Source: an uncultured Marvinbryantia sp. (GTDB lineage: Bacteria; Bacillota; Clostridia; Lachnospirales; Lachnospiraceae). Taken from it: a DNA stretch of 20,443 bases. Position numbers and translations under genes: made by a program. Under the pieces are notes generated by a model that made no database searches, was not told the origin of the DNA, and worked only from the letters and a program-made list of their open reading frames with translations. Location of the stretch: the NCBI GenBank assembly GCA_934373455.1, contig CAKRON010000043.1:1-20443 (forward strand), given 5' to 3'. Each line of letters starts with the position of its first letter. The first letter of the stretch is position 1. This document shows, piece after piece, positions 4,333 to 19,007 of this stretch.

Positions 4333-4367
4333 GTTCTGTCTCCCTTCTGTCGGTGTGTCATGCGGTG

Positions 4368-4439: not shown

Positions 4440-4445
4440 TTCACT

Positions 4446-4493
4446 TAAAAACAGCCGAGGACATCTGCGATTGTTTGCAGACATCCTCGGCTG
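4446..4493 (-). terminator. Rho-independent terminator after the alcohol dehydrogenase gene
   Basis: The arms CAGCCGAGGACATCTGC (4452-4468) and GCAGACATCCTCGGCTG (4477-4493) pair with only two mismatches around an 8-nt loop. Read on the minus strand the stem is followed at once by TTTTTAA. It lies 92 nt beyond the alcohol dehydrogenase stop codon and before the redox operon, so it should end the iolG-like/ADH transcript. Confidence 0.85.
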
Positions 4494-4585
4494 ACTTATC
4501 AGTTTTTTCGATTTATAATCGTTTTTGTTTTGATTTGTTCATATCATAATCGTTCTACTGGAGATTGTATTGTAAAAAACGATAC
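4494..4585. other. AT-rich intergenic stretch with a 9-bp direct repeat
   Basis: The stretch lies between the alcohol dehydrogenase stop and its terminator. It holds ATAATCGTT twice, at 4515-4523 and 4546-4554. I see no gene and no convincing promoter. If the redox operon promoter were here, its transcript would have to pass the terminator hairpin. Confidence 0.4.
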
Positions 4586-5779
4586 TTATTTCTTATTGTT
4601 ATTGGCCATTTTATAAATCTTATAAATATCGTTTTCATCGCACACGCGGAAGGATCCTATGGTTCTGGTACCTCCAAATGCACAGCTATGTGCCATTGCA
4701 TGAAGTGTTGCATCATCCTGAAGACCTACTCCTTCTGCTTCGCCAAAGCAGGTGGGCATATCCAGTGATTGAAAATATGCTACTGTCTGACGAATTCCTT
4801 CCAAAGCTGCTTTTTCGGTATCTTCTTCTGTCACGTTCCATACTTTTCTGGCATACTGGGCGAATCTCTCTGGTTTTTCCTGATATACATACAATGCCCA
4901 GGATTCCCATACTGTGGAAAGGCTGGCTCCATGTGCAAGATCAAATCTGGAACTTAATTCATGTCCCAGCTGATGCACTGCGAAGTCTTTCTGCGCGCCA
5001 AGCCCTGTCAGACCATTGTGGGACAGACTTCCGGCCCACATCAGTTCACTCATGGCATTATAGTCATGTGCATCCCGAATTGCGATCTTTCCATTGCGGA
5101 TCGCTGTGCGAAGCAGTCCTTCTGCAATCTCATCTGTTAATTCATTATGTTCCGTCTTCGTGAAATAACGATCCAGAGTATGCATACAGATATCTACCAC
5201 TCCGCATCCAACCTGATATTTCGGGAGTGTAAAGGTCAGTTCCGGATTCATAATTGCAAACGCAGGGCGGTTAAAATCGGTGGACATTCCTCGTTTTTTC
5301 TGTGTCTCTTCGTCTGTCAATACTGCCGAATCACTGGTTTCACTGCCCGCTGCCGATAAAGTCAGAACTACTCCGACCGGAAGGGATTTGTCTACTTTCT
5401 TTTTTCCTGTCCAGAAGTCCCAAATATCTGTGTCAGGGTTAGCGGTTCCATGAGCAATTGCCTTGGCTGTGTCAATCACACTTCCGCCTCCCACCGCCAG
5501 CACAAAATCCGTGCCGAATTCTTTTGATTCCTCTACGCATTCTCTCGCAAAAGAGAGTCTTGGATTTGGTTTTACGCCACCTTTTGCCACCCATGTAAGC
5601 CCTGCTTCTGTCAGAGAATCCGTCACACGATTCAGAAGCCCACTTTTCACTACGCTTCCTCCACCATAAACTACGAATACTTTACTCGCTCCCTGCTGCT
5701 TTGCCAGACTTCCGGCCTGCTGTTCTGTGTCCTTTCCAAAAATAATTCTGGTTGGTGTATATTGTGTAAATGCCTGCAT
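4586..5779 (-). CDS. Iron-containing alcohol dehydrogenase, YqhD/BdhA type
   Basis: A 397-residue group III alcohol dehydrogenase, full length for the family. The N-terminal nucleotide-binding part has YGGGS at 38-42 and the GGGSVID motif at 97-103. The metal ligands expected from E. coli YqhD are all present: D196 and H200 in VVDICMHTLD, H269 in FAVHQLGHE, and H283 in LAHGASL. Such enzymes reduce aldehydes to alcohols in the cytoplasm, usually with NADPH and an Fe or Zn ion. The start ATG 5779 has a strong AAAGGAG site. A REP palindrome (5793-5824) stands only a few nt upstream of that site, in the gap after the inositol dehydrogenase-like gene, with which it probably shares a transcript. 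The physiological aldehyde is unknown. Confidence 0.93.
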   Translation of the reverse strand: MQAFTQYTPTRIIFGKDTEQQAGSLAKQQGASKVFVVYGGGSVVKSGLLNRVTDSLTEAGLTWVAKGGVKPNPRLSFARECVEESKEFGTDFVLAVGGGSVIDTAKAIAHGTANPDTDIWDFWTGKKKVDKSLPVGVVLTLSAAGSETSDSAVLTDEETQKKRGMSTDFNRPAFAIMNPELTFTLPKYQVGCGVVDICMHTLDRYFTKTEHNELTDEIAEGLLRTAIRNGKIAIRDAHDYNAMSELMWAGSLSHNGLTGLGAQKDFAVHQLGHELSSRFDLAHGASLSTVWESWALYVYQEKPERFAQYARKVWNVTEEDTEKAALEGIRQTVAYFQSLDMPTCFGEAEGVGLQDDATLHAMAHSCAFGGTRTIGSFRVCDENDIYKIYKMANNNKK

Positions 5780-5792
5780 AATTTTCTCCTTT

Positions 5793-5845
5793 GGGACGGT
5801 GTTTTTTGGCTTTTTTAGTGTCCCTTATTGTTTTATTGTTGTGTT
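5793..5845 (-). repeat. REP palindrome with a remnant of a RAYT C-terminus (copy b)
   Basis: Positions 5793-5824 hold GGGACGGTGTTTTTTGGC and its partner GTGTCCC, a near match to the left end of the transposase element at 6929. The next 21 bp, read on the minus strand, translate as NTTIKQ followed by TAA. This aligns with NTAIKP and the stop of the transposase remnant, so the copy is the 3' end of a RAYT element. Further upstream, in the same frame, LTEIMQ resembles LTGISR of the transposase. Confidence 0.8.
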
Positions 5846-5874
5846 GCACTGCATAATTTCTGTCAGCTATTAAA

Positions 5875-6885
5875 CTACATAATTTCTGCCATCTTTACCG
5901 GTCGGTGCTCTGCCAGTGATTTTTTCGCTGCTAGTCCCATGCGTACTGCTTCCAGTCCATCCGTGATTCCGAGTGGTGTCTCTGTATCCTGCTCGATTGC
6001 TTGAACAAATGCTCTGATCTCTTTTGCATAAGACTGCATATAACGTTCCAGGAAAAAGTACAATGGTTTTTCTCCCATTACGCCTTCCGAATTGCTGATC
6101 ACTGCAGAAGATGTGGTATCATTGGATACCGATACCATCCCCTGCGAACCAAACACCTCTACTCTCTGGTCATATCCATAGACTGCTTTTCTGGAATTAT
6201 CTATCGTAACAATGCTGCCATTTTCCATCTTCATAGTAATGACAGCAGTATCCACGTCTCCCGCTTTTCCTATCGCCGGATCGATCCGCACTCCTGCCTG
6301 CACATAGATCTCTTCTGCGTCGCAGCCTGCCAGAAAACGTGCCATATCAAAATCATGAATTGTCATATCCAGAAACATTCCACCGGAGACTTTTACGTAT
6401 TCCAGGGCCGGTGGCTCCGGATCTCTGGATGTAATACGTACAATATGTGGTTCTCCGACTTTTCCGGATACCACCGCATTCTGTACTGCTTCGAAATTGT
6501 GATCGAATCGACGGTTAAATCCAACCTGATATTTTACCGGATGCTTTTTCAATGCTTCCTGCACCTGTCTGATTTTTTCTATACTATGATCCACTGGTTT
6601 TTCGCAGAATACGTGCTTGTCTGCCTCAATAGCTTCCATCGATATCGAAGCATGCGTATCTGTGGATGAACAAATCAGTACTGCATCTATTTCCGGATCA
6701 TCCAGAATCTCATGATAATCTTTTGTTACCTGCGCCACACCTTTCTTCTTTACCCATGCCTCCTTTTCCGCATCCATAAATGGATCTGCCACTGTCTTTA
6801 CCTTTGCATTCGGAACCTGTGTACAAATACTTTCCATATGTACTTTTCCGATTCTTCCTGCACCAATGATTCCTAACTTAACCAT
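5875..6885 (-). CDS. iolG: Inositol 2-dehydrogenase-like oxidoreductase (Gfo/Idh/MocA family)
   Basis: A 336-residue NAD(P)-dependent sugar/polyol dehydrogenase. The N-terminal Rossmann domain has GAGRIGKVH at 8-16. The family motif CEKP has its catalytic K96. The C-terminal domain carries D173 and H177 in FLDMTIHDFD, which align with Lys97, Asp172 and His176 of B. subtilis IolG. IolG oxidises myo-inositol to scyllo-inosose. No other inositol catabolic gene is visible, so the exact polyol is uncertain and the symbol is tentative. I chose ATG 6885 because AGGGGG lies just upstream; the reading from 6927 would start in the promoter and repeat region. It probably forms a transcript with the alcohol dehydrogenase gene 95 bp downstream. 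Confidence 0.82.
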   Translation of the reverse strand: MVKLGIIGAGRIGKVHMESICTQVPNAKVKTVADPFMDAEKEAWVKKKGVAQVTKDYHEILDDPEIDAVLICSSTDTHASISMEAIEADKHVFCEKPVDHSIEKIRQVQEALKKHPVKYQVGFNRRFDHNFEAVQNAVVSGKVGEPHIVRITSRDPEPPALEYVKVSGGMFLDMTIHDFDMARFLAGCDAEEIYVQAGVRIDPAIGKAGDVDTAVITMKMENGSIVTIDNSRKAVYGYDQRVEVFGSQGMVSVSNDTTSSAVISNSEGVMGEKPLYFFLERYMQSYAKEIRAFVQAIEQDTETPLGITDGLEAVRMGLAAKKSLAEHRPVKMAEIM

Positions 6886-6908
6886 AGTCTTGACCCCCTG
6901 ATATCTTT

Positions 6909-6924
6909 TATAACAAGTATAGCA
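6909..6924 (-). promoter_or_regulatory. Candidate extended -10 promoter of the iolG-like gene
   Basis: Minus-strand TGCTATACT (6916-6924) is an extended -10 element, TGn followed by TATACT. It lies about 31 nt upstream of the chosen start ATG at 6885. The position of the -35 box is occupied by the REP palindrome 6929-6960 and no good hexamer is seen there. Confidence 0.5.
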
Positions 6925-6928
6925 CAAT

Positions 6929-7334
6929 GGGGACGGTGTTTTTGGCTTTTTTTGTGTCCCTTATGGTTTTATTGCTGTGTTGATTGCTGTCCGTGAAATA
7001 CCTGTCAGTCTGCTAAGCTGGCGTATGGATATGCCGGTATGGTATAGTTGACTTAAATAATGATTTCTTGTAATGAGATCCAGCCGTTGAAAATCTGCCG
7101 GCGATTTACATGGTGTTTTTTTCTGAATTATTTGAAGTGCTTCTATATCAGAAATACGAATTGTTGAATTGTGCTCCATACATTTTTCTTCAGAAGTGGT
7201 TTGCAAGTAATCCATGCACTCTGCATGATTTGAAAACAGGCTAAGAATTTTTTCAATATCTATAAAAGAATTGTCCGAATTGGCATAAGACCAATCCACT
7301 AGGGACGGTATTAATGCCAAAAAACACCGTCCCC
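6929..7334 (-). mobile_element. Degenerate REP-RAYT element flanked by inverted palindromes (copy c)
   Basis: A 406-bp unit begins with GGGGACGGTGTTTTTGGC (6929) and ends with GCCAAAAAACACCGTCCCC (to 7334), so its ends are inverted. Each end is itself a small palindrome: 6929-6960 (GGGAC/GTCCC) and 7302-7334 (GGGACGGT/ACCGTCCC, 8 bp). Between them is the C-terminal half of a RAYT-type transposase; the catalytic N-terminal half is missing. The unit lies between the 3' end of the last polysaccharide-cluster gene and the promoter of the iolG-like gene. Confidence 0.85.
6961..7299 (-). pseudogene. REP-associated tyrosine transposase (RAYT/IS200-like), C-terminal remnant
   Basis: About 112 residues remain. 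They match the distal part of Y1/HUH-type RAYT proteins: DWSYANSD resembles the end of the catalytic domain, DIEKILSLFS follows, and a C-terminal helix-turn-helix (GISIRQLSRLTGISRTAI) precedes the stop at 6961. The HUH histidine pair and the catalytic tyrosine, normally in the first 150 residues, are absent because the sequence jumps directly into the right-hand REP palindrome. The open reading frame can be extended to 7347, but that part is translated repeat and the end of the neighbouring gene. It is not expected to act as a transposase. A role for the surviving helix-turn-helix cannot be excluded. Confidence 0.85.
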
Positions 7335-8438
7335 AATTTCTCTGCATATCCAGCCTGCTTCTCCTGTATACAATGGATATTTTCTGTTTTTATGAAATTC
7401 TGTTTCATAATTTTTTATCAGTTCTATAAGATGTTTGTTATCTCGGACCTGTACCGCTGCCATTCCGGTTATTGTCCAGGCAAAACCTTTTCTTGTTTTG
7501 TTCATTTCCTGCCACTGGAATTTTTCTGTAAACTGATTATATAATTCTTTTTGTGCCTTTTTTTCTTTTACTTTAAATCCACAGATCAGGGGATAGACTT
7601 GGGCTATTCCATCCGGATAGAATTTTTCCGGATTATAATGGTCACTGTCTCGCATGATTCGCCATCTTTGATTTTTTTCGTCCCAGAATACGGCCTCTAT
7701 TTGTTTCTGCAGGTTTTCACGCATTTCGGTTACCACTTGTGTTTGTGTCATATCGTCCTGCATGATATCTGCCGCTTCCAGTGCCAAAAGACCTTTCCAC
7801 ACTTCTAAATTATCCATCAGATAAATGGTTGTATTCTCTGTGGAAACCTGTGTGGTTCCATCTCGCATCAGACTCTGAATTTTGTCCAGTGCAAGATGAA
7901 TTCCTTCCTGCCAGGATTCTAGGCTTTCTGTATCGCCGGTTTTTTTCAGGTATTCTCCCATGAGTAAAAGGTACATACCAAGATAGCCGTCTTCTGAATC
8001 TGCTTTTTCCACATACACAAGTTCCTGTCCTTCTTTACGGTAAATTCCCATTTTTCCATCTGTTTCCAGAAGCATCTTGGTATGCCAGTTCAAGTACCTG
8101 CTCACCGCATTTTTCTCTGTTTCACTCATCGGACAATTTTTTGTTTCTGCCAGAAGTCCCAGTGCAGCCATACAGGCAAAATATGGATTTACATCTCCGG
8201 CTTTTTCTCCATTCATGTAAATTTCACCTGCCGCTCCCTGATTTTTCAGAATCCACTTTTTTTCTTCTGTCAAAACACTTTCCAGCCATTCCTGCCTTGC
8301 TCGTATTTCTTTTCTCCAGTTCTGATAATTTATGAACATCCATACCATTCCCATTATTATACACACCATGAGAAATGATTTCACGATTCTTCGCTGTTTC
8401 ACGTTTCTCTTTTGTCTGACCTTCTTATGATCATACAT
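7311..8438 (-). CDS. Membrane-anchored protein, possible six-hairpin glycosidase
   Basis: A 375-residue protein with a very basic N-terminus (DHKKVRQKRNVKQRR) and one membrane segment at about 21-40, so the main part should face outward. The rest is helical, with recurring aromatic and Gly-Asp/Glu-containing segments such as DSEDGYLGMYLLL, KFYPDGIAQVYPL and GFAWTITGMAAV. This suggests an (alpha/alpha) barrel like GH8 or related glycosidases, but I do not recognise the family with certainty. ATG 8438 is chosen for its GGAGG site and 8-nt overlap with the epimerase stop; a reading from 8507 would overlap far more. The last seven residues, GDGVFWH, and the TAA stop come from the inserted REP palindrome, so the native C-terminus is altered or lost. 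A hydrolase here would parallel BcsZ/CcsZ in other exopolysaccharide clusters. Confidence 0.6.
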   Translation of the reverse strand: MYDHKKVRQKRNVKQRRIVKSFLMVCIIMGMVWMFINYQNWRKEIRARQEWLESVLTEEKKWILKNQGAAGEIYMNGEKAGDVNPYFACMAALGLLAETKNCPMSETEKNAVSRYLNWHTKMLLETDGKMGIYRKEGQELVYVEKADSEDGYLGMYLLLMGEYLKKTGDTESLESWQEGIHLALDKIQSLMRDGTTQVSTENTTIYLMDNLEVWKGLLALEAADIMQDDMTQTQVVTEMRENLQKQIEAVFWDEKNQRWRIMRDSDHYNPEKFYPDGIAQVYPLICGFKVKEKKAQKELYNQFTEKFQWQEMNKTRKGFAWTITGMAAVQVRDNKHLIELIKNYETEFHKNRKYPLYTGEAGWICREIGDGVFWH

Positions 8439-9531
8439 CAAGATCCTCCAGAATTTTTCGAATTTTGATACTTGCTGTTCCATCACCGTAAGGATTTCTG
8501 GCTTCACTCATCTCCCGGTAGATTGCCTGATCTGTCAGAAGCTTCTTGCATTCTCTGTATATGTTCTCCATTCCTGTACCAGTCAGCTTTAACGTACCGG
8601 CCTCTACACCCTCCGGACGTTCTGTCGTATCTCTCATAACTAGCACAGGTTTTCCAAGTGCCGGCGCTTCCTCCTGGATTCCGCCGCTGTCTGTCATAAT
8701 CAGATAACTTGCTTTCATCAGGTTATGAAACTCCACCACATCCAGCGGTTCAATCATGTGAATTCTCTCACATCCGTCAAATTCCTGGTCGGCAATTTTT
8801 CTTACCTGTGGATTTAAATGAACCGGATAGATCACCTTTACATCTTCAAATTCTTCCACAATCTTTCGAATCGCACGGAACATATCCCGCATAGGTTCTC
8901 CCAGATTTTCACGTCTGTGCGCAGTCAGTGCGATCAGTCTGCTGCCTTTTGCCCATTCTATTTCAGGATGATAAAAATCATTTCGGACTGTATAATGTAA
9001 CGCATCGATTCCTGTATTTCCTGTAATAAAAATATGCTCTTTCTCTTTTCCCTCTTTCAAAAGCGCATCCGCTGCTTTCTGCGTTGGTGCAAAATGCAGA
9101 CTGGCAGTCAGTCCAATCGCCTGACGGTTAAACTCTTCCGGATATGGCGACTGCATATTATACGTGCGAAGTCCGGCTTCCACATGTCCTACCGGAATCT
9201 GCTGATAAAATGCAGCCAGGGATGCTGCAAATGCAGTTGAAGTATCTCCATGTACCAGCACAATGTCCGGTTTTTCCTTTTTCAGAATCTCTCGCATTCC
9301 TGTAAGAATTGCAGTAGTCACGTCTGTCAGATCCTGCCCTTTTTTCATAATAGCCATATCATAATCCGGAACCACATGAAAAATATCAAGCACCTGATTC
9401 AGCATTTCTTTATGCTGCCCGGTAACACATACCACAGTTTGCAGTTTTTCGCTTTTTTTTAATTCCAAGACAAGGGGACACATTTTTATTCCTTCCGGTC
9501 TTGTTCCAAAAATAACCAGTACCTTTTTCAT
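8431..9531 (-). CDS. wecB: UDP-N-acetylglucosamine 2-epimerase (non-hydrolysing)
   Basis: A 366-residue protein, full length for the non-hydrolysing family, with a GT-B fold. Motifs are FGTRPEGIKMCP at 8-19, VHGDTST with D96, HVEAGLR with E118, PEEFNR with E132, and TAHRREN with H205. A UDP-binding segment SGGIQEEAP lies near residue 285. These align with Asp95, Glu117, Glu131 and His213 of E. coli WecB. The enzyme interconverts UDP-GlcNAc and UDP-ManNAc in the cytoplasm. The start ATG 9531 has AGGAGG upstream and lies 3 nt after the CotH-family stop. No UDP-ManNAc dehydrogenase (WecC) is present, so within this cluster the product would be used as ManNAc. Confidence 0.95.
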   Translation of the reverse strand: MKKVLVIFGTRPEGIKMCPLVLELKKSEKLQTVVCVTGQHKEMLNQVLDIFHVVPDYDMAIMKKGQDLTDVTTAILTGMREILKKEKPDIVLVHGDTSTAFAASLAAFYQQIPVGHVEAGLRTYNMQSPYPEEFNRQAIGLTASLHFAPTQKAADALLKEGKEKEHIFITGNTGIDALHYTVRNDFYHPEIEWAKGSRLIALTAHRRENLGEPMRDMFRAIRKIVEEFEDVKVIYPVHLNPQVRKIADQEFDGCERIHMIEPLDVVEFHNLMKASYLIMTDSGGIQEEAPALGKPVLVMRDTTERPEGVEAGTLKLTGTGMENIYRECKKLLTDQAIYREMSEARNPYGDGTASIKIRKILEDLDV

Positions 9532-9534
9532 TTG

Positions 9535-10953
9535 TTAATTTCCTCCTAATTCCTTATCCAGAAAAGCAATTCTCTTCTGAATGGTATCCTTCAACTGTGT
9601 CATTGCATCTTCATAGCTTTCAATATCTCTTGAGGTTCCATCTTTATTCCTGCCAACCAGCAGATTTTCTTCAAAAGAATATCCCCATACTTTAAAATTT
9701 CTTTCCACAGCTTCTCCCAGTTCTTTTTCATAGGACGCTATTTTATCAAAAATATGCTCTTCCGAAAGAGTACTTTTACGAAGCTGACAGTATCTTTCAC
9801 GGACGCGTTCTCGGAAGTTCTCGTCCTGCCACAATCTTTCAATCCAGGAATTTTCGATTGTGTGAAACTCATCGGTTTCTGACCGGAACCACTGATAATT
9901 GTCAAATCCATTGTTAAAATCCCAGACTGCCAGCTGCAATTTTCCTCCAAGTTCTTTGTATACATATGTGGAAAGATTTCCTGCATCATAGTTCATGGCA
10001 AATTCGTTGATAATAAAATAGTCTATCCAGTTATCCACATCTATATACTTTTGATAGCCGCTCCATTTATCCTGAAAATTATCCCCGTATAAAACTTTTT
10101 CAAATTGGGAAATATCATTTTCGATATATTCTATTTGCTTCTCTGTCACCTTCTTAGAAGAAGGATATTCGAGGTACATGGCATTGTTGGTGTATCCCGC
10201 TGTTTTTCCATAAGTTTCCAGTTCTTCTGATCCGGTATCCACTCTGTCCCTGTTTGCTATATAAGCAGTTTCACCGGAGAGAAGACCAAATTCAGCAAGA
10301 CGAAGCCGGCTTTCTCCATTCGTAACCGGTTCGACTGCCAGATAAACGCCCTGATATTTTCCGTCTACAAACAGCTCCACAAATCTTGAATCCGGCGCCC
10401 ATCCATTTAATTCCCTGGAAAGGTCATACATCAGTTTATTTCGTATTAACGTCTTGTCAAGGTAGGGACCATTCAAAACCCACTCACTGTTTGCACCCAT
10501 TCCTGCCAGAGACACTTTTTTAGAACTGTCTTTTTTATTTTTATAAAACTTGATTCGATATTGCTTTTTTTCAAATTTTAAATAAGAAGAAGCACCTCGA
10601 TATTTAATTGTCGCTCTGTGAAGTGAATTAGGAACAGAAAATATCGATTTTTCTTCACCGTCCGCTTCCAAAAGAGCAATATTTCCCCAGATCGTATTTT
10701 CCTTTAACACCTGCTGACCTTTGGTATTCATATAAACTACCGGAAGTGTAGTGGAAAACTCGCCCAGACCATAATACTCCAGCATATCCTTATCTGGTGC
10801 AATCCATTCTTTTCTTTCCTCTTCCGTGATAACAGTTTTCTTTTTACCTTTTGATGTGTTCTCCGATTTGACAAAGAAGTTTCCCATAAGGGAGGCTGCA
10901 CAAAGAAACGCTATCATAAAAAAACTTAACAGGATCCATTTTATCCTTTTCAT
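9535..10953 (-). CDS. CotH kinase family protein, membrane-anchored
   Basis: A 472-residue protein with one N-terminal membrane segment (about 5-25) and an external domain of the CotH family. Visible family motifs are RGASS at 119-123 with the KK pair at 129-130, NGPYLDKTLIRNKL near 161-174, and FVDGKYQGVYLAVEP near 195. The nucleotide/metal segment WDFNNGFDN lies at 344-352. In B. subtilis spores CotH is an atypical protein kinase that phosphorylates coat proteins; most family members have no known target. Many CotH proteins read WDFD where this one reads WDFN. ATG 10953 is preferred over 10971 because GGGAGGAATCGAA directly precedes it. It sits in the VTC-DUF4956-CotH order that I know as a recurring gene group. 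Confidence 0.88.
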   Translation of the reverse strand: MKRIKWILLSFFMIAFLCAASLMGNFFVKSENTSKGKKKTVITEEERKEWIAPDKDMLEYYGLGEFSTTLPVVYMNTKGQQVLKENTIWGNIALLEADGEEKSIFSVPNSLHRATIKYRGASSYLKFEKKQYRIKFYKNKKDSSKKVSLAGMGANSEWVLNGPYLDKTLIRNKLMYDLSRELNGWAPDSRFVELFVDGKYQGVYLAVEPVTNGESRLRLAEFGLLSGETAYIANRDRVDTGSEELETYGKTAGYTNNAMYLEYPSSKKVTEKQIEYIENDISQFEKVLYGDNFQDKWSGYQKYIDVDNWIDYFIINEFAMNYDAGNLSTYVYKELGGKLQLAVWDFNNGFDNYQWFRSETDEFHTIENSWIERLWQDENFRERVRERYCQLRKSTLSEEHIFDKIASYEKELGEAVERNFKVWGYSFEENLLVGRNKDGTSRDIESYEDAMTQLKDTIQKRIAFLDKELGGN

Positions 10954-10983
10954 TTCGATTCCTCCCCACACAGCAGTTCTTTT

Positions 10984-11664
10984 TTATTGTGAAAGTTCAT
11001 CCTTCTGGTCAACCACATTTACTCTTTTTACACCATCGATTTTAATCAATTTTTCTGAAATATCCATCTGGTTCTTTTTCGCAAAATGTTCCAGTACACC
11101 TTCTCCGATAGAATACACCAGTTCGCAGCTTGTCTGTGTCACATTGCGCATGGAAGCATGCACTTTTCCGGAAAAGAATGTATCCACAGCGGCTTCAATC
11201 TTATGTAAACTTTGGAGATCTCCCTGCACAACCAGCATCTTATTGCAGGTTGTAAATCCTTTTCTGGTAAGAATAAGAAACAGCAGCAAAAAGGCTGAAC
11301 CGACAGCAATCAATGCATACTGGGAAACACCGCAGCCAATACCTGCTGCAATTGCCCAGAAAATATATGTAGCATCCCGCACATCTTTTACTGCGGTACG
11401 AAAACGGATGATAGAAAGCGCACCCACCATACCAAGAGACAATGCAACGTTGTTACTGATAATACTCATAATCATTGCAGTGATAATCGTAATAGATCCA
11501 ATGGAAATATTAAACCGTCGGCTATAGGTTGTTCCTGCATAGGAGATTTTGTAAGTCAACATGATGAAAAACGCCACCACTAAAGCCATCACATTGTTCA
11601 TCAGGATTGTGGCCATACTCAATGCCTCTGTGTTTGTCAGATTTTCAATTATAAATTCCCTCAT
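10984..11664 (-). CDS. DUF4956 domain membrane protein
   Basis: A 226-residue protein with about four to five membrane segments in residues 16-133 and a cytoplasmic C-terminal domain of about 90 residues. The signature LGMVGALSIIRFRTAVKD lies at about 77-94 and identifies DUF4956. No biochemical role is known to me for this family. It is commonly found next to VTC-domain and CotH proteins, as here. The start ATG 11664 follows GGAGAGATGAA. The gene is 44 nt downstream of the VTC gene, with a small 13-bp palindrome (CGGCATTATGCCG, 11681-11693) in the gap, and 30 nt upstream of the CotH gene. Confidence 0.88.
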   Translation of the reverse strand: MREFIIENLTNTEALSMATILMNNVMALVVAFFIMLTYKISYAGTTYSRRFNISIGSITIITAMIMSIISNNVALSLGMVGALSIIRFRTAVKDVRDATYIFWAIAAGIGCGVSQYALIAVGSAFLLLFLILTRKGFTTCNKMLVVQGDLQSLHKIEAAVDTFFSGKVHASMRNVTQTSCELVYSIGEGVLEHFAKKNQMDISEKLIKIDGVKRVNVVDQKDELSQ

Positions 11665-11708
11665 TTCATCTCTCCAATCCCGGCATAATGCCGTCTATTT
11701 ATTTACCT

Positions 11709-12383
11709 TCACATCATTCTTGCTCTGGAATATTTACTGTGACTGGTAGACAGTTCATCTGCTTCTTTTAATACCTCTGCTATCGTATCCGGAAGAAATC
11801 CTGTATACTTTACTTCCATTAATTCCTTATTGGTTCCACCCAGGGCAACTGTCCCTGTATTTTCAAATAAACCATACGGATAAGACGCTCCTCTTATATC
11901 TGTATCAAAGGTAATCCTCACATCTCCTGCCGGATACGCAAATGCCAGTCTTTGGTAGTCAATAATCGTTTTCGGCCGATAGCATCCCCGGGTGATCCGC
12001 AAATACAGACGCATGGCCAGTTCTGTTTCGTAATTCAGGAGAAAAGAAGCATCTCCCTGTTCCATACGAAGGGCTTCTTCCCGGCTGATTGGTATGGAAT
12101 ATTTCACCCCGTCCATCCCATTTTTACATTTGAATTCCAGTTTGACCGTAGTATCCGATAAGGAATAGATTCTTAATCTGATTTTTCTTTTTTCATATAT
12201 TCCATCGAGATTGTCCCATAAGTCCCTGTCATCAATGGAATCATAATATTGTGACCGGATAAAATATCTTCCATTCTCTCCATGAACATCTCTCTCCATG
12301 ATTGTATCCAGCTTTTGCTGCAAAATAATAGAAGATTTTCGGTCGATCAGATATTTGATTTCTTTGCGAAAAACCGTTTCCAA
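11709..12383 (-). CDS. VTC polyphosphate-polymerase-domain protein
   Basis: A 224-residue single-domain member of the VTC/CYTH-like triphosphate tunnel family. Expected basic and acidic tunnel residues are visible: RKEIKYL at 6-12, KRKIRLR at 65-71, KLEFKCK at 81-87, DYQR at 142-145, ELMEVKY at 187-193 and HSKYSRAR at 215-222. In yeast, Vtc4 makes polyphosphate from ATP at a membrane. Bacterial single-domain relatives are known mostly by sequence. It has no membrane segment and would act in the cytoplasm, perhaps with the DUF4956 protein. The start is a TTG codon at 12383 with AAGGGGG upstream. It overlaps the preceding gene by 37 nt in another frame, which suggests coupled translation. Confidence 0.88.
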   Translation of the reverse strand: METVFRKEIKYLIDRKSSIILQQKLDTIMERDVHGENGRYFIRSQYYDSIDDRDLWDNLDGIYEKRKIRLRIYSLSDTTVKLEFKCKNGMDGVKYSIPISREEALRMEQGDASFLLNYETELAMRLYLRITRGCYRPKTIIDYQRLAFAYPAGDVRITFDTDIRGASYPYGLFENTGTVALGGTNKELMEVKYTGFLPDTIAEVLKEADELSTSHSKYSRARMM

Positions 12384-12943
12384 ATTTTCTGCCCCCTTTC
12401 TGATTTTCTTTCAAACAAGATGAGCTGAATTAGAAATCCGCATACCGCAAGTAAAACGGCGTTCTTGATTCCAGCTTCAGAAATCAGCAGTGCACCGGCT
12501 GTCACTGTAGCAAGTATTGCTCCTTCCAATGGAAAAAATCCGGCTGCCACAGCTGTACCTATGGCGAAAGCTCCAGTCACCCACAGAGAAGGATGATTCA
12601 TCCACACAACTGCCGCAGCGGTCAGTGCAGAAAATAACATGGAATCTGCTGTTTTCCATTTAAATGCCATGTATCCCAGCAGACATCCGGTTATGGTAAA
12701 AGCAGTTACAATGCTTCCCCATTTTGCGTGACCGTCCATTATGGTGCATAAGATAACCGTCACACCCCAGAACATCACAAAGGACATAACAGCTGTATAT
12801 ATTTTAGCTCCCAGGAAAATCAGTATTATTCCAAGCACCAAAAATCCTGTTCTTATGTTATCTGCGTCCATATAAAACGTTCCTGCAGTTCCTGTCTTTT
12901 TCAGGAAAATATCGATGCCCTGTAAAATGAGTTCCGACATCAT
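12347..12943 (-). CDS. Polytopic membrane protein of unknown function (TMEM198/DUF4203-like)
   Basis: A 198-residue protein made almost entirely of about seven hydrophobic segments between residues 30 and 175, ending in a basic tail (KSERGQKIWKRFFAKK). The repeated glycine-containing helices resemble TMEM198/DUF4203-type proteins, but this is a weak resemblance. The start ATG 12943 (or the adjacent ATG 12940) follows GGAGGGAAGG and overlaps the previous stop in the ATGATG arrangement. Its last 37 nt overlap the VTC gene. Position and overlap suggest a partner of the VTC or glycosyltransferase proteins. No function can be stated. Confidence 0.7.
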   Translation of the reverse strand: MMSELILQGIDIFLKKTGTAGTFYMDADNIRTGFLVLGIILIFLGAKIYTAVMSFVMFWGVTVILCTIMDGHAKWGSIVTAFTITGCLLGYMAFKWKTADSMLFSALTAAAVVWMNHPSLWVTGAFAIGTAVAAGFFPLEGAILATVTAGALLISEAGIKNAVLLAVCGFLIQLILFERKSERGQKIWKRFFAKKSNI

Positions 12944-14046
12944 GCCTTCCCTCCCTCCTCTGAAAGTGGATTCAGTGCTCTCATATAAGACGCCTTTCCC
13001 ATTTCTGCAACATCCTGTGCCCAGATGATGTATTTTATATCATACTCATCTATGATTTTTTCCAGGTTCTGCACAAAATCGACATCCTCATAAATATTTG
13101 ATACGTAGACTTTATGAAATAACTCAGATAAATAGGAAATCATCATTTTTCCTCTTGTATCTGTGATCAAAAGAAGATTTTCTTCTCCTCTTCCCTCCAC
13201 TACACTGTGTTGGTACTCAGAAGCAATGACCGCATTCCCGCCACTGCTGTTCAGCTGGATCGTCGTCCGCTTCATTGTCTGCAGCTTTCCTTTTCTGTTT
13301 TCAAAAGTGACTTCTTCACAGTTTGGATTCGAACCATTGAGATAAATATAAAAAATATCCTTTTCTATATTTTTTATGGATTCTGCAAGATCTGTTTCAC
13401 ATTTTTTTGCGGCTGAAGAAACCAGATCTCCATCAAAATTTCCAAAGGCATATTCGCGGTAAGCATCCAGATTTTCTTCTTCGTATCCAATTGCTTTAAA
13501 AAAGGTCTGTGCACCGTAAAATGCCCCTCGCATCGTCCAGTTGTTTTCTGTCCGGAAATAAAGATATTCATATTTGTGTTGTTCCATTTCCGGCAGCGGA
13601 TTTAATACTTCTGCATTGTCAGAAAGAGCCTTCTTCATCTTTTCGATATAACTGTTGTATTGTTCTTTTTCACTGTCATATCCAACTTCAAACACGCCTC
13701 TTTCCGGCACCGGCAGAATATATATATCTTTACCTGTTTTTTTCTGAAGTGCGCCGGCAATGTCTGATGCATACAATGCCTGGGATGTATCCGTCTGATT
13801 GATGTTGAAAATGCGGTCTGTATAAACGACTTGTTTTGCATCTTCTAAAAGCTTTTTTGTAGATAATGTTTGGTTATCTTTTAATCCAAAACCGTTATAC
13901 AAATCCCTCGTTTCCGGATAATATATCTGCTCTTTCTTTGCATTCTGAACCTGGTCCATCTGATTTTGAAGAATCAGTGTTCCTGTTCCCAGCAGCAGGA
14001 GGAAGAATAAAACAAGAAACAGTTGAAGTATTTTACTCTTTTTCAC
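12940..14046 (-). CDS. DHHW/AlgX-like SGNH protein with degenerate catalytic motifs
   Basis: A 368-residue protein with an N-terminal membrane anchor (about 7-27) and an external domain. The overall pattern matches DHHW-family (AlgJ/AlgX-like) O-acetyltransferases found in exopolysaccharide clusters. However, the defining DHHW motif reads ENNW (167-170, in YFRTENNWTMRGA). The usual nucleophile segment (D-S-[FY]) reads ITDTRGK at 294-300, with Thr for Ser. Acetyl transfer is therefore unlikely; a binding or scaffold role is possible. The start is GTG 14046 with GGGAGG upstream, overlapping the upstream stop by 14 nt. Its own stop overlaps the next gene's ATG. Confidence 0.72.
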   Translation of the reverse strand: MKKSKILQLFLVLFFLLLLGTGTLILQNQMDQVQNAKKEQIYYPETRDLYNGFGLKDNQTLSTKKLLEDAKQVVYTDRIFNINQTDTSQALYASDIAGALQKKTGKDIYILPVPERGVFEVGYDSEKEQYNSYIEKMKKALSDNAEVLNPLPEMEQHKYEYLYFRTENNWTMRGAFYGAQTFFKAIGYEEENLDAYREYAFGNFDGDLVSSAAKKCETDLAESIKNIEKDIFYIYLNGSNPNCEEVTFENRKGKLQTMKRTTIQLNSSGGNAVIASEYQHSVVEGRGEENLLLITDTRGKMMISYLSELFHKVYVSNIYEDVDFVQNLEKIIDEYDIKYIIWAQDVAEMGKASYMRALNPLSEEGGKA

Positions 14047-15730
14047 GTTCTTTCACCTCCCTGAAATGAATCTGAACCTTTGGACAGATTTCATTTAATT
14101 CTGCAATGCCTGGCTGATCTTTTATTCTTTCCGGTACTGAAATACTAACCAGGGAACTGCAATACTTAAATGCACTGATTCCAATATATTCTATCTGATC
14201 CGGCAAATATACTTCTTTTAATTTTTTACATCCCCGGAAGCTATGAGCGCCTATTTTCTTTAATAATGCATTGTCTGAAAATATGATTTTTTCAATGGCC
14301 AGACATCCTGCAAATGCTGCACCTTCAATCGTCTCAAGGGAATCCGGAAGTCTGGATACTTCCAGCTTCTCACAATTTTCAAAAGCTGAATTTCCAATAT
14401 AATTCAGTGGAAGCTGAGACAGATCTTCCTGCATTTGCAGCAAGGTACAGTCGGCAAAGGCATAGTCTTCTATAATAGAAATACTTTTTGGCAGACATAT
14501 TTTTTCAAGCTTCTGACATTTAAAAAACTGACTTGCCGGTATTACCACACTTCCATCCGGTATCACTGCCTCTTTTATATGCTGATCCATCCTGAATCCC
14601 TGATAGTCAACATTCTGGTATTCTTCCAGACTCTGAAATACAAGCTTTTCTGTATACACCGGTTTTTCCGGAAAACAATATTCTTCCGACAATGTTTCAT
14701 CTGATTTCAGAATTTCACCGCCTCCTTCTGATGTAATATACCCAAATACGTAATTGTTCCCATAAAAGCTTATGTTTCCCCTTGCAACTACAGAACTTAT
14801 CTTATTTGGCTGGCCAACGCTGGCACCTTCTTCAAATATAATGTTGCCCTGAGTAAAAACGTTGCCCAGTACTGTTGCATTTTTTTCCAGAAGCACATCT
14901 TTCTCTGCAAACACATTGCCAAGGACTGCTGCATTTTCCATAATTCTTACGGATTCATCACTGTGAATATCCCCTTGAAGAATGATGTTCTCTATTACCT
15001 TTACATCCCCTCTTGAAATAATGGAATAAGGCACCGTTCCGTTTTCTGTAATCATATCCTCATGAATATAATGACGGTTGAATTCATGGCTGTTGAGCAC
15101 CGGCATCCGAAAGATTTTCATATCACGGCTTTCCATAAAGCGTTCCGGTTCCTGTGGTCTCTGACCAAGACGGATCATTGGAGCATACAAACTTTGAAAA
15201 GTATTGTCAAACCCGATTACCAGCTGTTCTCCGCTGGATACTCTTCTTCCCAGATCGCATCCGTCATAAACCACAACTGCTTCTTCTGCATCTGCCCATC
15301 TAAGCAGATGAATGTTATTTCCGAAAAGAATTCTCTGCTTACTGTATACCGCACGAATTTTGGTTTCTTTTGCAAAGAACATCGCATCTTTTTCGCAGTA
15401 TATTTCTTTATGAAACTCTAAACCTTCTTGTTTTAGGCAAAAGGTTTGCTTTCTGGAAAGAACCAATTTTTCTATATCTGAATTTTTAAATGTCGTATCT
15501 TCTTCGATTTCCAAAACTTCCTCTGGTTTGGAAAGTGTAATCACATTATTTTTCATTTCCGGAAGAGCTTTTTCCATCATGTTCGCAAAACTACGTCCAA
15601 AGTATCTTGTATCTTTGACATAATTCTGTCTTATTTTCAGAATCTGTCCCTTTTTTAACCGGAAATACAATAATGCAACTACAAGAGGCATAGACATCAT
15701 GCAGATAAAAAGTAAAATCCATATCTTCAT
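14033..15730 (-). CDS. Membrane-anchored bactofilin-like and BspA-type leucine-rich-repeat protein
   Basis: A 565-residue protein. An N-terminal membrane segment (about 3-23) is followed by a mixed region to about 235. Residues 236-340 show a beta-helix of the bactofilin/polymer-forming type with a recurring pattern (AAVLGNVFAEKDVLL, then ATVLGNVFTQGNIIF, 22 residues apart). Residues about 390-535 hold LRR_5 (BspA-like) repeats such as LPKSISIIEDYAFADC and LPDQIEYIGISAFKYC. The combination suggests a self-assembling or scaffold protein around the polysaccharide synthase. The start ATG 15730 overlaps the glycosyltransferase stop as ATGA. Both the domain pairing and the position between synthase and AlgX-like gene are unusual. 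Confidence 0.8.
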   Translation of the reverse strand: MKIWILLFICMMSMPLVVALLYFRLKKGQILKIRQNYVKDTRYFGRSFANMMEKALPEMKNNVITLSKPEEVLEIEEDTTFKNSDIEKLVLSRKQTFCLKQEGLEFHKEIYCEKDAMFFAKETKIRAVYSKQRILFGNNIHLLRWADAEEAVVVYDGCDLGRRVSSGEQLVIGFDNTFQSLYAPMIRLGQRPQEPERFMESRDMKIFRMPVLNSHEFNRHYIHEDMITENGTVPYSIISRGDVKVIENIILQGDIHSDESVRIMENAAVLGNVFAEKDVLLEKNATVLGNVFTQGNIIFEEGASVGQPNKISSVVARGNISFYGNNYVFGYITSEGGGEILKSDETLSEEYCFPEKPVYTEKLVFQSLEEYQNVDYQGFRMDQHIKEAVIPDGSVVIPASQFFKCQKLEKICLPKSISIIEDYAFADCTLLQMQEDLSQLPLNYIGNSAFENCEKLEVSRLPDSLETIEGAAFAGCLAIEKIIFSDNALLKKIGAHSFRGCKKLKEVYLPDQIEYIGISAFKYCSSLVSISVPERIKDQPGIAELNEICPKVQIHFREVKEREKE

Positions 15731-17001
15731 TTCCCAGCCTCCTTCCTCGTATTGTCTGTGGAAAATCTGATTGTTTTATCCCATTTCACCCCTCTTCCTG
15801 TAATTGTATCCAGCACAGCATCGAAAAATCCGAGAGAGATGTTCCACATATAAAAGAAGAAATTAAACATCATGAGCGGCAGCAACAATGCCTCTCCAAT
15901 CAGCCCATCTATCACCAATGATGTTCCAATTTCAAAAAACGGTGCAAAATTACCAAGGGAATTATAGATACCCAAAAATAAAATAACCCACCATCCTGAA
16001 AAGATCTGCATTTCTCCCAAGAAAAATAATGCCAGGGAATCAACCCAGCCGATCAGTAAGAATACCGGCACAGAATAGATAAAAAGCAGAAATAAACCAT
16101 CTATTTTCTGAAATAATCCCATGTATGGATTTGTGATCGTCGGAATCAGATAACGGAATAATACTTCATTATGTCCTCTGGACCAGCGTCTGATCTGTCT
16201 TCCCCGCACATTCCAGCTTTCCGGAGATTCTTCGTAACATTCTGCAGAATTTGCATACACGACCTTCCATCCATTTGTAAAAAGCCGATAGGTAAGCTCG
16301 GTATCTTCTGCCAGAACTTTGGGATTGAACCCTCCTGTCTGCAATAAAAAGTCTTTCCGAAATCCTCCTACGGTTCCACCGTACTGTGGAATGGTCCGAA
16401 GGTTATAACGTGCCTGCTGGTCAACCTGATATCCACCTGACCGCTCCAGATTAATCAGTCTGGTCAGCATGTTTTTATTTGTGTTATATGGAATGACTCT
16501 TCCCATAACTGCCCCTACCTGCGGATCTTCAAATCCAAGGGCAATCTGTTTTAACATATTTTTGGCAGGCCGGTAATCCGCATCAAATACGATGATGATT
16601 TCGCCTCTCGCCAGCTGCATGGCATCATTGAGTCCCACAGGTTTTCCTCTGTCCGGACAGTCTCTGTGAAGCGGTCGTATGAACTCATATTTTCTGTGAT
16701 ATTCGTCCAGCATTTCTTTTGTGCGGTCTGTTGAATTGTCATTGATTGGGATGATTTCTAATCTGTCCCTGTCATAATCACATTCCAGGAGTGAATCCAG
16801 TACATTCATAAGTACCTGTTCCTCATTATGCATTGGAATCAATACGGAAATGCTTTTCATTCTGCTTGTAACAATATCATTGTAATAAAGGCGCTGCTTT
16901 CCCAACAGTCTTACCACGGTAAAATAAAAATGTCTGACTGTATACAACAGCATCAGAATAATCACAAATATTATGTAACCTTTCATAATAGCTATGACCA
17001 T
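15727..17001 (-). CDS. Processive family 2 glycosyltransferase (PgaC/hyaluronan synthase-like polysaccharide synthase)
   Basis: A 424-residue membrane glycosyltransferase. One N-terminal membrane segment (about 6-26) precedes the GT-A domain. Conserved sites are HNEE at about 58, IPINDNSTD with D88, FDADYRP with the DxD at 140-142, LAEDTELTY with E232-D233, and the processivity motif QIRRW at 269-273. Several hydrophobic segments follow at 300-395, forming the export channel. This is the pattern of synthases that polymerise and extrude a beta-linked polysaccharide (PgaC, hyaluronan and cellulose synthases). There is no PilZ domain. ATG 17001 is chosen for its AAGGAGG site; it overlaps the upstream stop by 10 nt. 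With the epimerase in the cluster, an N-acetylhexosamine polymer is the likeliest product, but the sugar is not proven. Confidence 0.93.
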   Translation of the reverse strand: MVIAIMKGYIIFVIILMLLYTVRHFYFTVVRLLGKQRLYYNDIVTSRMKSISVLIPMHNEEQVLMNVLDSLLECDYDRDRLEIIPINDNSTDRTKEMLDEYHRKYEFIRPLHRDCPDRGKPVGLNDAMQLARGEIIIVFDADYRPAKNMLKQIALGFEDPQVGAVMGRVIPYNTNKNMLTRLINLERSGGYQVDQQARYNLRTIPQYGGTVGGFRKDFLLQTGGFNPKVLAEDTELTYRLFTNGWKVVYANSAECYEESPESWNVRGRQIRRWSRGHNEVLFRYLIPTITNPYMGLFQKIDGLFLLFIYSVPVFLLIGWVDSLALFFLGEMQIFSGWWVILFLGIYNSLGNFAPFFEIGTSLVIDGLIGEALLLPLMMFNFFFYMWNISLGFFDAVLDTITGRGVKWDKTIRFSTDNTRKEAGK

Positions 17002-17786
17002 TTCCACACCTCCTTACCTTTTCGGGAATCATATATTTTAATCATTCGATTCACGAACATACCATAGATCATGACCAGATACAGAAAATCAAATAATGGT
17101 CCTATCATAAAGTAGAATAATGCCATATAGAGTACGGAATATTTGTACAGCAAATAGATAAATACCATATAACGCACTGTTCCAAATACAATGGAATACA
17201 GCATCACAAAAAATAACGCTGCCAGTTTATATCCCAGTCCCTTATTTCCCATGATTCCCGTAACGCAAACTGTCAGAACAAAAAATACGACCCATATGCC
17301 TATTTCCTGAAGTATATATAATTGAGAATACACCGTTAAGGTATACGGAAAATCTCTTCCGCCAAAGATAAACCAAAGGCTGTTTATCAGATGGATTGTG
17401 CCATTTAAAATCATATAGATGGCAAATGGACGTCCTTTACATGGCAGGAACGCAAACAGGAGAACTATGAATAAAGAGCATCCTGCATTGATCAGGCTTG
17501 TTCCAATTCCCGGGTATACTGTGTTCGCAGACAGATAACTGATTTTTCCAAACAGTGGATATGTTTCTGACCTTATTCCAATATACATACCCGGCTCATA
17601 TTTTTTCAGCTCCGCTGCACAAAATTTACAGATGATTCTGGTCAGATCTCCTACATGAAACCAGAAAAGTAAAAATACAAATATGATCAGTAAAATAATA
17701 TAAGCGGCACATTTCTTTTTATCCGCACTGATTTTTCGATATGTTCTGCTGTAATCAATAATTTTCTTTTCTTTCATAATCATCAC
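16992..17786 (-). CDS. Polytopic membrane protein of unknown function, first gene of the polysaccharide cluster
   Basis: A protein of up to 264 residues with about six or seven hydrophobic segments, basic ends and no recognised family. Segments include one near 27-44, one near 97-113, one near 117-137, and a cluster from 160 to 255. The start is uncertain: GTG 17786, ATG 17783 and ATG 17777 stand within 10 nt, behind AAGAAGAG. It opens the cluster and overlaps the glycosyltransferase gene by 10 nt. A partner of the synthase, for instance in polymer transfer, is plausible only from position. Confidence 0.7.
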   Translation of the reverse strand: MMIMKEKKIIDYSRTYRKISADKKKCAAYIILLIIFVFLLFWFHVGDLTRIICKFCAAELKKYEPGMYIGIRSETYPLFGKISYLSANTVYPGIGTSLINAGCSLFIVLLFAFLPCKGRPFAIYMILNGTIHLINSLWFIFGGRDFPYTLTVYSQLYILQEIGIWVVFFVLTVCVTGIMGNKGLGYKLAALFFVMLYSIVFGTVRYMVFIYLLYKYSVLYMALFYFMIGPLFDFLYLVMIYGMFVNRMIKIYDSRKGKEVWKWS

Positions 17787-17840
17787 CGCTCTTCTTTATT
17801 ATTTTTCTGAACTCATGATCAATTCTTTATTACATTCTTC

Positions 17841-17922
17841 ACTTATGACTATAGTCTATTTTATACTTATGATTATAAACCACATTGTTTATTTACATAA
17901 TATACTTTTTGACTTCAAAAAG
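17841..17922 (-). promoter_or_regulatory. Candidate promoter and operator region of the polysaccharide cluster
   Basis: On the minus strand a perfect -10 hexamer TATAAT (17872-17877) lies 17 bp from a poor -35 (TTATGT, 17895-17900). Five bp upstream is a perfect palindrome with 8-bp arms and a 2-bp centre (CTTTTTGA/TCAAAAAG, 17905-17922). A 13-bp direct repeat, ACTTATGAyTATA on the plus strand, occurs at 17841-17853 and 17865-17877, the second copy covering the -10. The poor -35 next to a palindrome fits activator control. The leader would be about 80 nt. It lies in the 225-bp gap between the cluster and the LuxR-family gene. Confidence 0.5.
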
Positions 17923-17963
17923 TGCCCCTTTTCTGTAATAAGAAATGCATTTTCCTACTATAG

Positions 17964-18011
17964 AAAAATACGGTCATCCGCACTGATAATTCAGTAAGTT
18001 GACCGTATTTT
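17964..18011 (-). terminator. Rho-independent terminator of the LuxR-family gene
   Basis: A perfect 12-bp stem (AAAATACGGTCA at 17965-17976 with TGACCGTATTTT at 18000-18011) encloses a 23-nt loop. The loop itself contains a small ACTGA/TCAGT stem. It starts right after the LuxR-family stop codon and ends in a T-rich run on the minus strand. The plus strand also reads into T residues, so it may work both ways. Confidence 0.8.
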
Positions 18012-19007
18012 TTATCTCAGTACAAATTTCTTTAGTTCATCTCTTTTTTTCACATGAAGTTTACCAAAAATATCTGTCAGATAATGCTTCACTGTATTTA
18101 TCGATATTCCTATATGATCTGATATTTCCTGATTGCTCCATCCCCGGCTGGCAAGCATTGCAATAGAAAATTCCATAGTTGTCAAAATATCTGTCACATT
18201 TTCATCCGCACGTGGGTTATGAACTGCTGTCCAGCCACGGGTGAATGAAATCACTGCTTCAGCTATCTTTTTATACATTTCAGGCTTTTCTTTGCGAATG
18301 CATGATTCCAACAGCCCCTGCAGAAGTCCGTGGTGTTCAATAAGTGGTTCAAAAAATCCGTCCTTCTCTGCTATTTTCCATGCAGTGCGCAGCGCTTTTT
18401 GTGCTTCTGTCTGATTTTTCAGACTCATTTCACACGTAGCAATCATACAGTACAGATATATCGTGCTGATTGGATACTTCTCTTCGCTAAAAATCAACGC
18501 CGCATCACAGAGTCCCAGCGCTCTTCCATATTCTCCTTTCAGGTAAAGATCATGTGCCATTACATAAAACGCATAAATTCTAAGGCCATCGGGCAGCTCA
18601 GATATGTATCTTTTCATCTCTTGAAAATCTTCCATCGGGAGATGCAGAAGCACTGTTACCAGATATCTGGTAAATTTACAATATGCCAGATTCTCATCGG
18701 ATGACGGCGCCGCCATTTCTTTTCTAATCGTTTCCCGAATTATTTCCAATGCATGCCTGGATGATCCGGCATTTCCCAATGTCAGATTCGAATATGCATA
18801 TAACATACATGCCGACAGCCGCAATTTCAAATCCGGACTCATAATATATATTTCCGCTATATCACTGCATTTTTTCACTTCTCCCGAAAAATAATAATAT
18901 TCCGCCAAAGCAATCTCAGAAAAATTCCGATCTTTAAAACTTTCTGCCCTCTCTTTTGCAGTTCCTGGCTCAAAATCTGCATTGAGCAATGGTAAAACTG
19001 TCATCAT
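18012..19007 (-). CDS. LuxR-family transcriptional regulator with TPR-like N-terminal part
   Basis: A 331-residue protein. The C-terminal 60 residues form a LuxR-type helix-turn-helix (MLASRGWSNQEISDHIGISI followed by NTVKHYLTDIFGKL), a DNA-binding domain. Residues about 20-250 are helical with paired aromatic/alanine patterns such as ALAEYYYFSGE, AHDLYLKGEYGRALGLCDAA and QTEAQKALRTAWKIAEK, which suggests TPR repeats as in the sensing half of MalT-like regulators. The large ATPase domain of MalT is absent, so this is a short-form regulator with an unknown signal. The start is ATG 19007 or the adjacent ATG 19004, with only a weak GAAAGAAG site. A REP palindrome ends 14 nt upstream of the start. 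Location just before the polysaccharide cluster makes that cluster a candidate target. Confidence 0.85.
   Translation of the reverse strand: MMTVLPLLNADFEPGTAKERAESFKDRNFSEIALAEYYYFSGEVKKCSDIAEIYIMSPDLKLRLSACMLYAYSNLTLGNAGSSRHALEIIRETIRKEMAAPSSDENLAYCKFTRYLVTVLLHLPMEDFQEMKRYISELPDGLRIYAFYVMAHDLYLKGEYGRALGLCDAALIFSEEKYPISTIYLYCMIATCEMSLKNQTEAQKALRTAWKIAEKDGFFEPLIEHHGLLQGLLESCIRKEKPEMYKKIAEAVISFTRGWTAVHNPRADENVTDILTTMEFSIAMLASRGWSNQEISDHIGISINTVKHYLTDIFGKLHVKKRDELKKFVLR

Follow-up and report, generated by a model that had tools for sequence, protein, structure and literature searches.

The Pss polymer of Listeria is, according to a review, a poly-beta-(1,4)-N-acetylmannosamine with galactose (PMC5039582). 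An N-acetylmannosamine (ManNAc) polymer has been proposed for NfrB of Escherichia coli from its dependence on wecB (PMC8669472, PMC8669469), a ManNAc glycan for the PGR system of Acinetobacter (PMC12507263) and a deacetylated ManNAc-rich polymer for an operon of Clostridium difficile 630 (PMC7710045). In Gram positive bacteria, the Pel operons are adjoined by genes of three accessory families, VTC, DUF4956 and CotH (PMC7112168, PMC12345266). Here we describe a gene cluster in a contig of an uncultured Marvinbryantia sp. (CAKRON010000043.1; the whole stretch of 20,443 nucleotides (nt) that was analyzed is called the window) in which a processive synthase lies together with a WecB epimerase and the same three families. 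It consists of ten tightly packed open reading frames (ORFs), A to J, all on the minus strand (7311..17786, Table 1), and is a variant of the synthase-dependent exopolysaccharide systems. Its core, A-B-C, delineates an uncharacterised synthase family with a predicted ManNAc polymer and two alternative sets of partner genes, which the tree labels (those of metagenomes may err) place in about 15 phyla.

A preliminary description of the window had counted nine genes in this cluster. The limits and the tight packing stand, with spacings between the listed ORFs of -37 to +44 nt, while the count has to be raised to ten. The same description took one transcriptional unit as directly shown; for A-J we infer such a unit from the spacing.

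The synthase family and its conserved neighbors

The cluster proteins were compared with Pfam at its curated cut-offs (gathering scores) and with NCBIfam at its equivalog cut-offs. Glycosyltransferase family 2 (GT2), DHHW, VTC, DUF4956, CotH and UDP-GlcNAc 2-epimerase (GlcNAc, N-acetylglucosamine) were all found above the Pfam cut-offs. The processive glycosyltransferase of the QxxRW type announced earlier is confirmed: in B, the motifs typical of processive GT2 enzymes (DxD, ED and QIRRW) are invariant. Outside its own family, B is closest in pairwise comparison to the synthase of locus L121 (177 bits), to Listeria PssC (159 bits, 31% identity over 376 residues) and to the synthase of L122 (159 bits), three proteins that group together in a small tree. 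PgaC (96 bits), BcsA (69 bits) and the synthase of L125 (42 bits) are further away, and NfrB is not significantly similar (E 1.9), so that among the four characterised synthases compared (PssC, PgaC, BcsA and NfrB) PssC is the closest. The NCBIfam models for more specific functions were not reached by B, neither that of the poly-N-acetylglucosamine synthases PgaC/IcaA (TIGR03937; 121.2 bits, cut-off 422.3), nor that of cellulose synthase (TIGR03030; 51.2 bits, cut-off 699.1), nor that of the XrtG-associated glycosyltransferases (TIGR03111; 87.7 bits, cut-off 363.95).

The gene called an epimerase before is a clear wecB, its product (I) scoring more than twice the TIGR00236 cut-off, and it is linked here to a processive GT2 gene. 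The formation of UDP-ManNAc by WecB is established for the family. Because WecB is in the operon and B is kin to PssC, we predict a ManNAc polymer, possibly beta-1,4-linked, as the product. The synthase-dependent surface polymer of the preliminary description is in this way well supported and its sugar narrowed to ManNAc.

Conservation of the cluster was studied in 90 loci that were collected by their synthase only: 80 loci on genome contigs (the best 80 of at least 509 confirmed matches in one scan), two on plasmids, seven that were found by searching whole genomes, and the window itself. Some of them are near copies of one another. L123, which shares a contig with L003, the outgroup synthases L121 and L122, and the DUF4956 neighborhoods L124-L131 were left out of the counts. 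Counted were profile matches that lie close to the synthase on the same strand, the profiles having been trained on these same loci. A was found in 85 of the 90 loci, C in 89, I in 56 and J in 52. When six other exopolysaccharide loci were used as a check of specificity, all six synthases matched the profile of B (29 to 239 bits) and the profiles of A, C, D, F, G, H, I and J, and of K and Y (two genes of related loci, see below), gave no match at E 0.01. The order A-B-C-D-(E)-F-G-H is kept in all 14 loci having F, G and H, with the qualifications that L120 ends before A, that E was not detected in L011, L118 and L120, and that L011 has a second match to C. Besides, the nearest relative fetched (L003) aligns with the window over 7,944 nt in pieces within the cluster and nowhere in either flank; its synthase matches B at 83% in the search and at 91% over the alignment columns kept for the tree. 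The cluster is therefore a genuine conserved unit, and the conserved co-occurrence that the preliminary description had set as its own test came out positive. Within any one group it is rare: one family has it in 6 of 299 genomes, the family to which the L003 genome belongs in 3 of 150 and one phylum in 7 of 398 (the starting genome counted each time). Three of the last seven are far weaker matches, and two of these, when inspected, had neither A nor C.

A, predicted to be a partner of the synthase, was detected by its profile in both plasmid loci (L001 and L002); a search of plasmids with the single sequence of A gave no match. L001 lies on an IncI-type conjugative plasmid of Escherichia fergusonii, with bactofilin, wecB, YaiO-like, A, acyltransferase, J and synthase genes at L001:6572-13251. 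The AlphaFold model of A is confident (mean predicted local distance difference test, pLDDT, 93.2) and had no match in the PDB at E 0.001. Comparison of the fold by Foldseek and VIA-align gave nothing convincing, which does not amount to the demonstration of a new fold. We also considered A as an exosortase (XrtG) and rejected the idea, since it matches no family and not the XrtG model, and has no conserved Cys or His.

Two alternative sets of partner genes

In the synthase tree the window falls in a clade of 20 rows (support 100/99) whose named members we take to be Bacillota of monoderm groups, with the exception of L008. The contig of L008 is titled Micrarchaeota, its cluster groups with a Clostridiaceae one and it is probably a misbinned metagenome contig; the tree labels name 15 phyla without counting its own. 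Within the monoderm clade, D was found in 18 loci, F in 15, G, H and I in 14 each, E in 11 and J in nine, and Y and K in none. The other 70 loci contain instead a YaiO barrel (Y, 57 loci) and a NodB-like protein (K, 42), together with I (42) and J (43), and none of D to H; that of Sporomusa malonica (L016), for example, has A, B, C, K, J and Y. Nowhere in the 90 loci does any of F, G and H occur together with K or Y; ten loci, some on short contigs, have neither set. Y is above the YaiO cut-off (PF19413) in L002 and below it in L001, and K matches polysaccharide deacetylase below the cut-off. L119, whose phylum group is also that of the monoderm loci, lacks Y but has K besides A, B, C, J and I, so the split between K and the trio need not strictly follow the presence of an outer membrane. 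In a clade in which the trio is otherwise usual, Granulicatella balaenopterae has a GGDEF-EAL gene directly behind C (L007:11162-12553), which suggests control by cyclic di-GMP (c-di-GMP) at that locus.

C had been described as a bactofilin/leucine-rich repeat (LRR) scaffold. The repeats are confirmed (LRR_5, 158 bits in the window and present in 7 of 10 relatives scanned), but the bactofilin domain (PF04519) reached only 20.1 bits, under the gathering score of 27.9, and we call it bactofilin-like. The score was also under 27.9 in all nine relatives with a match that were scanned and in L002, and over it only in L001 (31.0).

D belongs to the DHHW family, as was claimed (cut-off 25, Table 1), but the motif that names the family has decayed to TENNW; the match to ALGX (25.4 bits) is under the cut-off of 26.5. 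Where an MBOAT gene is adjacent to D or fused with it, four of five loci (L011, L012, L013 and L117) have the exact motif. In the fifth, L120, a fused MBOAT-DHHW protein replaces D (4742-7270, minus strand) and reads TNPHW. None of the 13 loci without MBOAT in the cluster has the exact motif (Fisher p 0.0016, L120 included, calculated by hand on loci that are not independent). The four intact loci share one clade, which implies few events, and the motif differs in various ways among the others; D of L009 keeps DH, and L006 is a short contig. No MBOAT partner was found within the window cluster, and in L003 an MBOAT gene and a second DHHW-type protein lie about 5 kilobases upstream of A. With the motif altered and no MBOAT in the cluster, we rejected D as an O-acetyltransferase of the DHHW/AlgX type, and here it is probably not an acetyltransferase.

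The possible glycosidase of the preliminary description, J, has no Pfam family, and its AlphaFold model has the (alpha/alpha)6 fold of glycosidases. Three residues are invariant (D98, D101 and D160) and one is nearly so (E163), a set that would fit catalysis by a glycoside hydrolase.

The phosphate trio and the proposed mechanism

The VTC-DUF4956-CotH trio (F, G and H) was correctly recognised from the start, all three being above the Pfam cut-offs, and the genes are found in that order beside the synthase in the same 14 loci, side by side as in the accessory set of Pel. The alignment of F with yeast Vtc4 is weak (E 0.0016) but colinear, and the residues that correspond to the Arg, Lys and Tyr of the Vtc4 tunnel, presumably with the catalytic ones among them, are invariant in 15 sequences. 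H aligns with the CotH structure 5jd9, with two Asp, presumably catalytic, invariant in 14. By hydropathy, F has no membrane segment (15 of 15), G has 3-4 (14 of 14) and H a single N-terminal one (14 of 14), so that H is predicted outside the cytosol in every case. DUF4956 genes were found in 10 of 12 genomes reached via the synthase loci (17 genes in total), and in eight of the 12 one was in the cluster. Chance alone would be expected to give 0.13 within 10 kb of the synthase, a rough yardstick since these genomes are related.

Similar associations were found elsewhere. L125 (Butyrivibrio genome G002, contig C514) has CotH, MBOAT, a weak DHHW-type match, VTC and DUF4956 before its synthase and DUF4956, CotH and MBOAT after it; the synthase bears PilZ, matches the cellulose-synthase model below the cut-off and is a third polymerase beside the trio. 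In L124, L127 and L128, VTC-DUF4956 pairs lie beside Cthe_2159 carbohydrate-binding proteins, with no CotH detected in the stretch covered. The NELoc-2 locus of Clostridium perfringens carries VTC and CotH (PMC2879425). Given these positions beside Pel, this synthase, the L125 synthase and Cthe_2159 proteins, the trio appears to serve surface polymers as a portable accessory. In the 2025 paper on Pel the three-gene synteny was not found outside Pel, the exact arrangement sought there being perhaps different from ours (PMC12345266), so the loci presented here extend the trio beyond it.

We think it somewhat probable that the cluster makes a surface polymer of poly-ManNAc type, with the trio as a transmembrane phosphate device. 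Gene content, order and co-occurrence, kinship, model folds and hydropathy were observed; which sugar and linkage are made, and what A, C, D, E, J and the trio do, we infer. UDP-GlcNAc would be converted to UDP-ManNAc by I, polymerised and pushed through the membrane by B with A and C, and the chain trimmed outside the cell by J. In most relatives that are not monoderm, Y would be the likely exporter and K the likely deacetylase beyond the inner membrane; the monoderm clade has neither and in most cases has D, E and the trio instead, which would act at the surface. In this device VTC would be cytosolic, DUF4956 membrane-embedded and CotH external, and its most likely output would be the phosphorylation of C, D or the polymer as an extracytoplasmic partner, tuning the amount or retention of the polymer. 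The tuning is proposed by analogy with Streptococcus intermedius, in which the level of Pel and aggregation change when the matching genes are lost. There, deletion of SIR_1592, with four membrane segments, raised Pel and reduced aggregation, and deletion of SIR_1594 (CotH) lowered Pel and also reduced aggregation (PMC12345266); we equate SIR_1592 with DUF4956. The trio would so pass from an oddity of Pel to a general polymer accessory with a testable phosphate donor and target.

Several data weigh against this model. An identity of 31% does not fix the sugar or the linkage of a GT2 enzyme, and in 34 of the 90 loci the neighborhood covered lacks WecB. A wecB over the cut-off was found genome-wide in 18 of 18 genomes checked (16 without an adjacent copy) but also in 10 of 14 controls, because of which we dropped this as uninformative. 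J is present in fewer than half of the monoderm loci and is missing from L003. A mutant of SIR_1593, which has the polyphosphate-polymerase domain, still made Pel and kept aggregation (PMC12345266), a mild phenotype that counts against an essential role of VTC. Finally, no pelDEADAFG families or DUF4832 were found among the annotated ORFs of the window, and no c-di-GMP parts in the window.

It is quite possible, if not the probable case, that the trio is a regulator, CotH and DUF4956 tuning the synthase through protein phosphorylation or phosphate sensing on a polymer free of phosphate, which is compatible with ManNAc as the sugar. The authors of the Pel work suggest control by protein phosphorylation (PMC7112168), and Pel is still made without each of the trio genes, its amount altered without two of them (PMC12345266). 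However, H is predicted on the outer side in all 14 cases, away from the catalytic domain of the synthase and from ATP. That the polymer consists of another amino sugar (GlcNAc, mixed GlcNAc/ManNAc, or N-acetylmannosaminuronic acid after oxidation), with WecB serving a side chain or another pathway, seems unlikely to us: PgaC is the next characterised relative of B and the 34 loci without WecB nearby would fit, but PssC is clearly closer and both architectures have WecB within the operon.

The preliminary description proposed a product that is phosphorylated or linked to a phosphate-dependent process, a hypothesis with which the conserved trio and the key residues kept by VTC and CotH would agree. 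Phosphorylation of the polymer itself is quite unlikely in our view; a polyphosphate-polymerase and a kinase family are in the operon with their key residues kept, but CotH is a protein kinase. Returning to the phosphate device, its boldest form, a rather improbable speculation, would be a polyphosphate-powered kinase outside the cell, portable among Pel, cellulose-like systems and this synthase family. Polyphosphate made by VTC would be conducted through the membrane by DUF4956 (with E), and CotH, having no ATP outside, would draw on it to phosphorylate the growing ManNAc polymer or its scaffold. A spore-coat cluster, suggested by the name CotH, a family named in spores, is hardly credible, as the same trio is present in streptococci that do not form spores (PMC7112168).

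Gene calls, surroundings and comparison with known systems

Table 1. Genes of the cluster in the window
Gene	Product	Position	Strand	Basis
A	264 aa (amino acids) membrane protein without family, predicted synthase partner	16992..17786	-	no Pfam/NCBIfam match
B	processive-type GT2 synthase	15727..17007	-	Pfam GT2 families; motifs DxD, ED, QIRRW
C	N-terminal membrane segment, bactofilin-like domain, BspA-type LRRs	14033..15730	-	Pfam, hydropathy
D	DHHW-family protein, decayed motif TENNW, one N-terminal membrane segment	12940..14046	-	Pfam DHHW 52.3 bits
E	198 aa membrane protein without Pfam/NCBIfam family	12347..12943	-	
F	VTC-domain protein, predicted cytosolic polyphosphate polymerase	11709..12383	-	Pfam VTC 105.1 bits
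G	DUF4956 membrane protein	10984..11664	-	Pfam 50.8 bits
H	CotH-type kinase, N-terminal membrane segment	9535..10971	-	Pfam CotH 218 bits
I	WecB, non-hydrolysing UDP-GlcNAc 2-epimerase	8431..9531	-	TIGR00236 505.7 bits, cut-off 210.15
J	(alpha/alpha)6 glycosidase-fold protein, predicted membrane-anchored	7311..8507	-	AlphaFold model

Two starts probably differ from the listed ones. J likely begins at the ATG at 8438, preceded by GGAGG, which gives an 8-nt overlap with I (the distance is -77 nt if J begins at the first GTG), and for H the ATG at 10953 behind GGAGGA is the likelier start. Upstream of the cluster, on the same strand, there are genes for a LuxR-type and a LytTR-type regulator. Downstream, also on the same strand (3-6927), lies a run of ornithine cyclodeaminase-like, FAD oxidoreductase, BFD/Fer2, pyridine-nucleotide oxidoreductase, Fer2_4, Fe-ADH and MocA family genes that resembles an operon of the sarcosine- or amino-acid-oxidase type. 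A 128 aa ORF at 6961-7347, with a sub-threshold match to a resolvase-type helix-turn-helix, overlaps the 3' end of J. The search for an RNA switch upstream of A gave three matches at chance level in 17000-18100 and none at the gathering score in the window; among relatives, FMN was matched in L004 and ssnA in L005. Scans for promoters (40 vs 31.5, standard deviation (sd) 5.0, in shuffles) and terminators (8 vs 7.1, sd 2.5) were not used, and the cluster DNA had no match in phage records.

In the titles, abstracts and passages of the full-text literature (subscription papers and preprints lying outside this scope) we found no paper with this gene set, and the clusters in the passages of PMC3684757 and PMC8250860 have gene sets that differ from A-J. 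The likeness to clostridial cellulose clusters noted in the preliminary description holds for the synthase, the hydrolase and the DHHW-family protein of ccsZABHI (PMC7710045). It is loose, as the MBOAT partner and the motif of D are missing here, whereas ccsZABHI has the MBOAT/DHHW pair CcsH/CcsI and a cellulose-type synthase, in whose description there neither WecB nor the trio is mentioned. The phosphate-related genes, which the preliminary description found lacking in cellulose-type clusters, accompany the Gram positive Pel operons, whose CotH, polyphosphate polymerase, DUF4956 and DUF4832 genes include the same trio families (PMC7112168, PMC12345266); the polymerase of our cluster is unrelated to that of Pel.

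The ManNAc systems resemble the cluster in other parts. By description, the ManNAc-rich operon of C. difficile 630 shares a GT2, a WecB homologue, a deacetylase and a hydrolase, and differs by its BcsB-type partner and GH113 (PMC7710045), and Acinetobacter PGR shares a GT2, WecB, a predicted porin and the proposed ManNAc glycan but is built on a BcsB homologue (PMC12507263). No BcsB-type partner was matched among the ten cluster proteins in Pfam or NCBIfam. The NGR system of E. coli (NfrA/NfrB/WecB) has a GT2, dependence on WecB and a proposed ManNAc polymer in common with it (PMC8669472, PMC8669469); NfrB, not significantly similar to B, has MshEN where B has only GT2 families, and A, C and J were not found in the nfr locus. 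Listeria Pss (pssA-E) has genes for BcsB, DUF2334 and a diguanylate cyclase, and none of A, C, J and the trio was matched there; its synthase PssC, at 31% and 159 bits, is the nearest to B of the characterised synthases compared.

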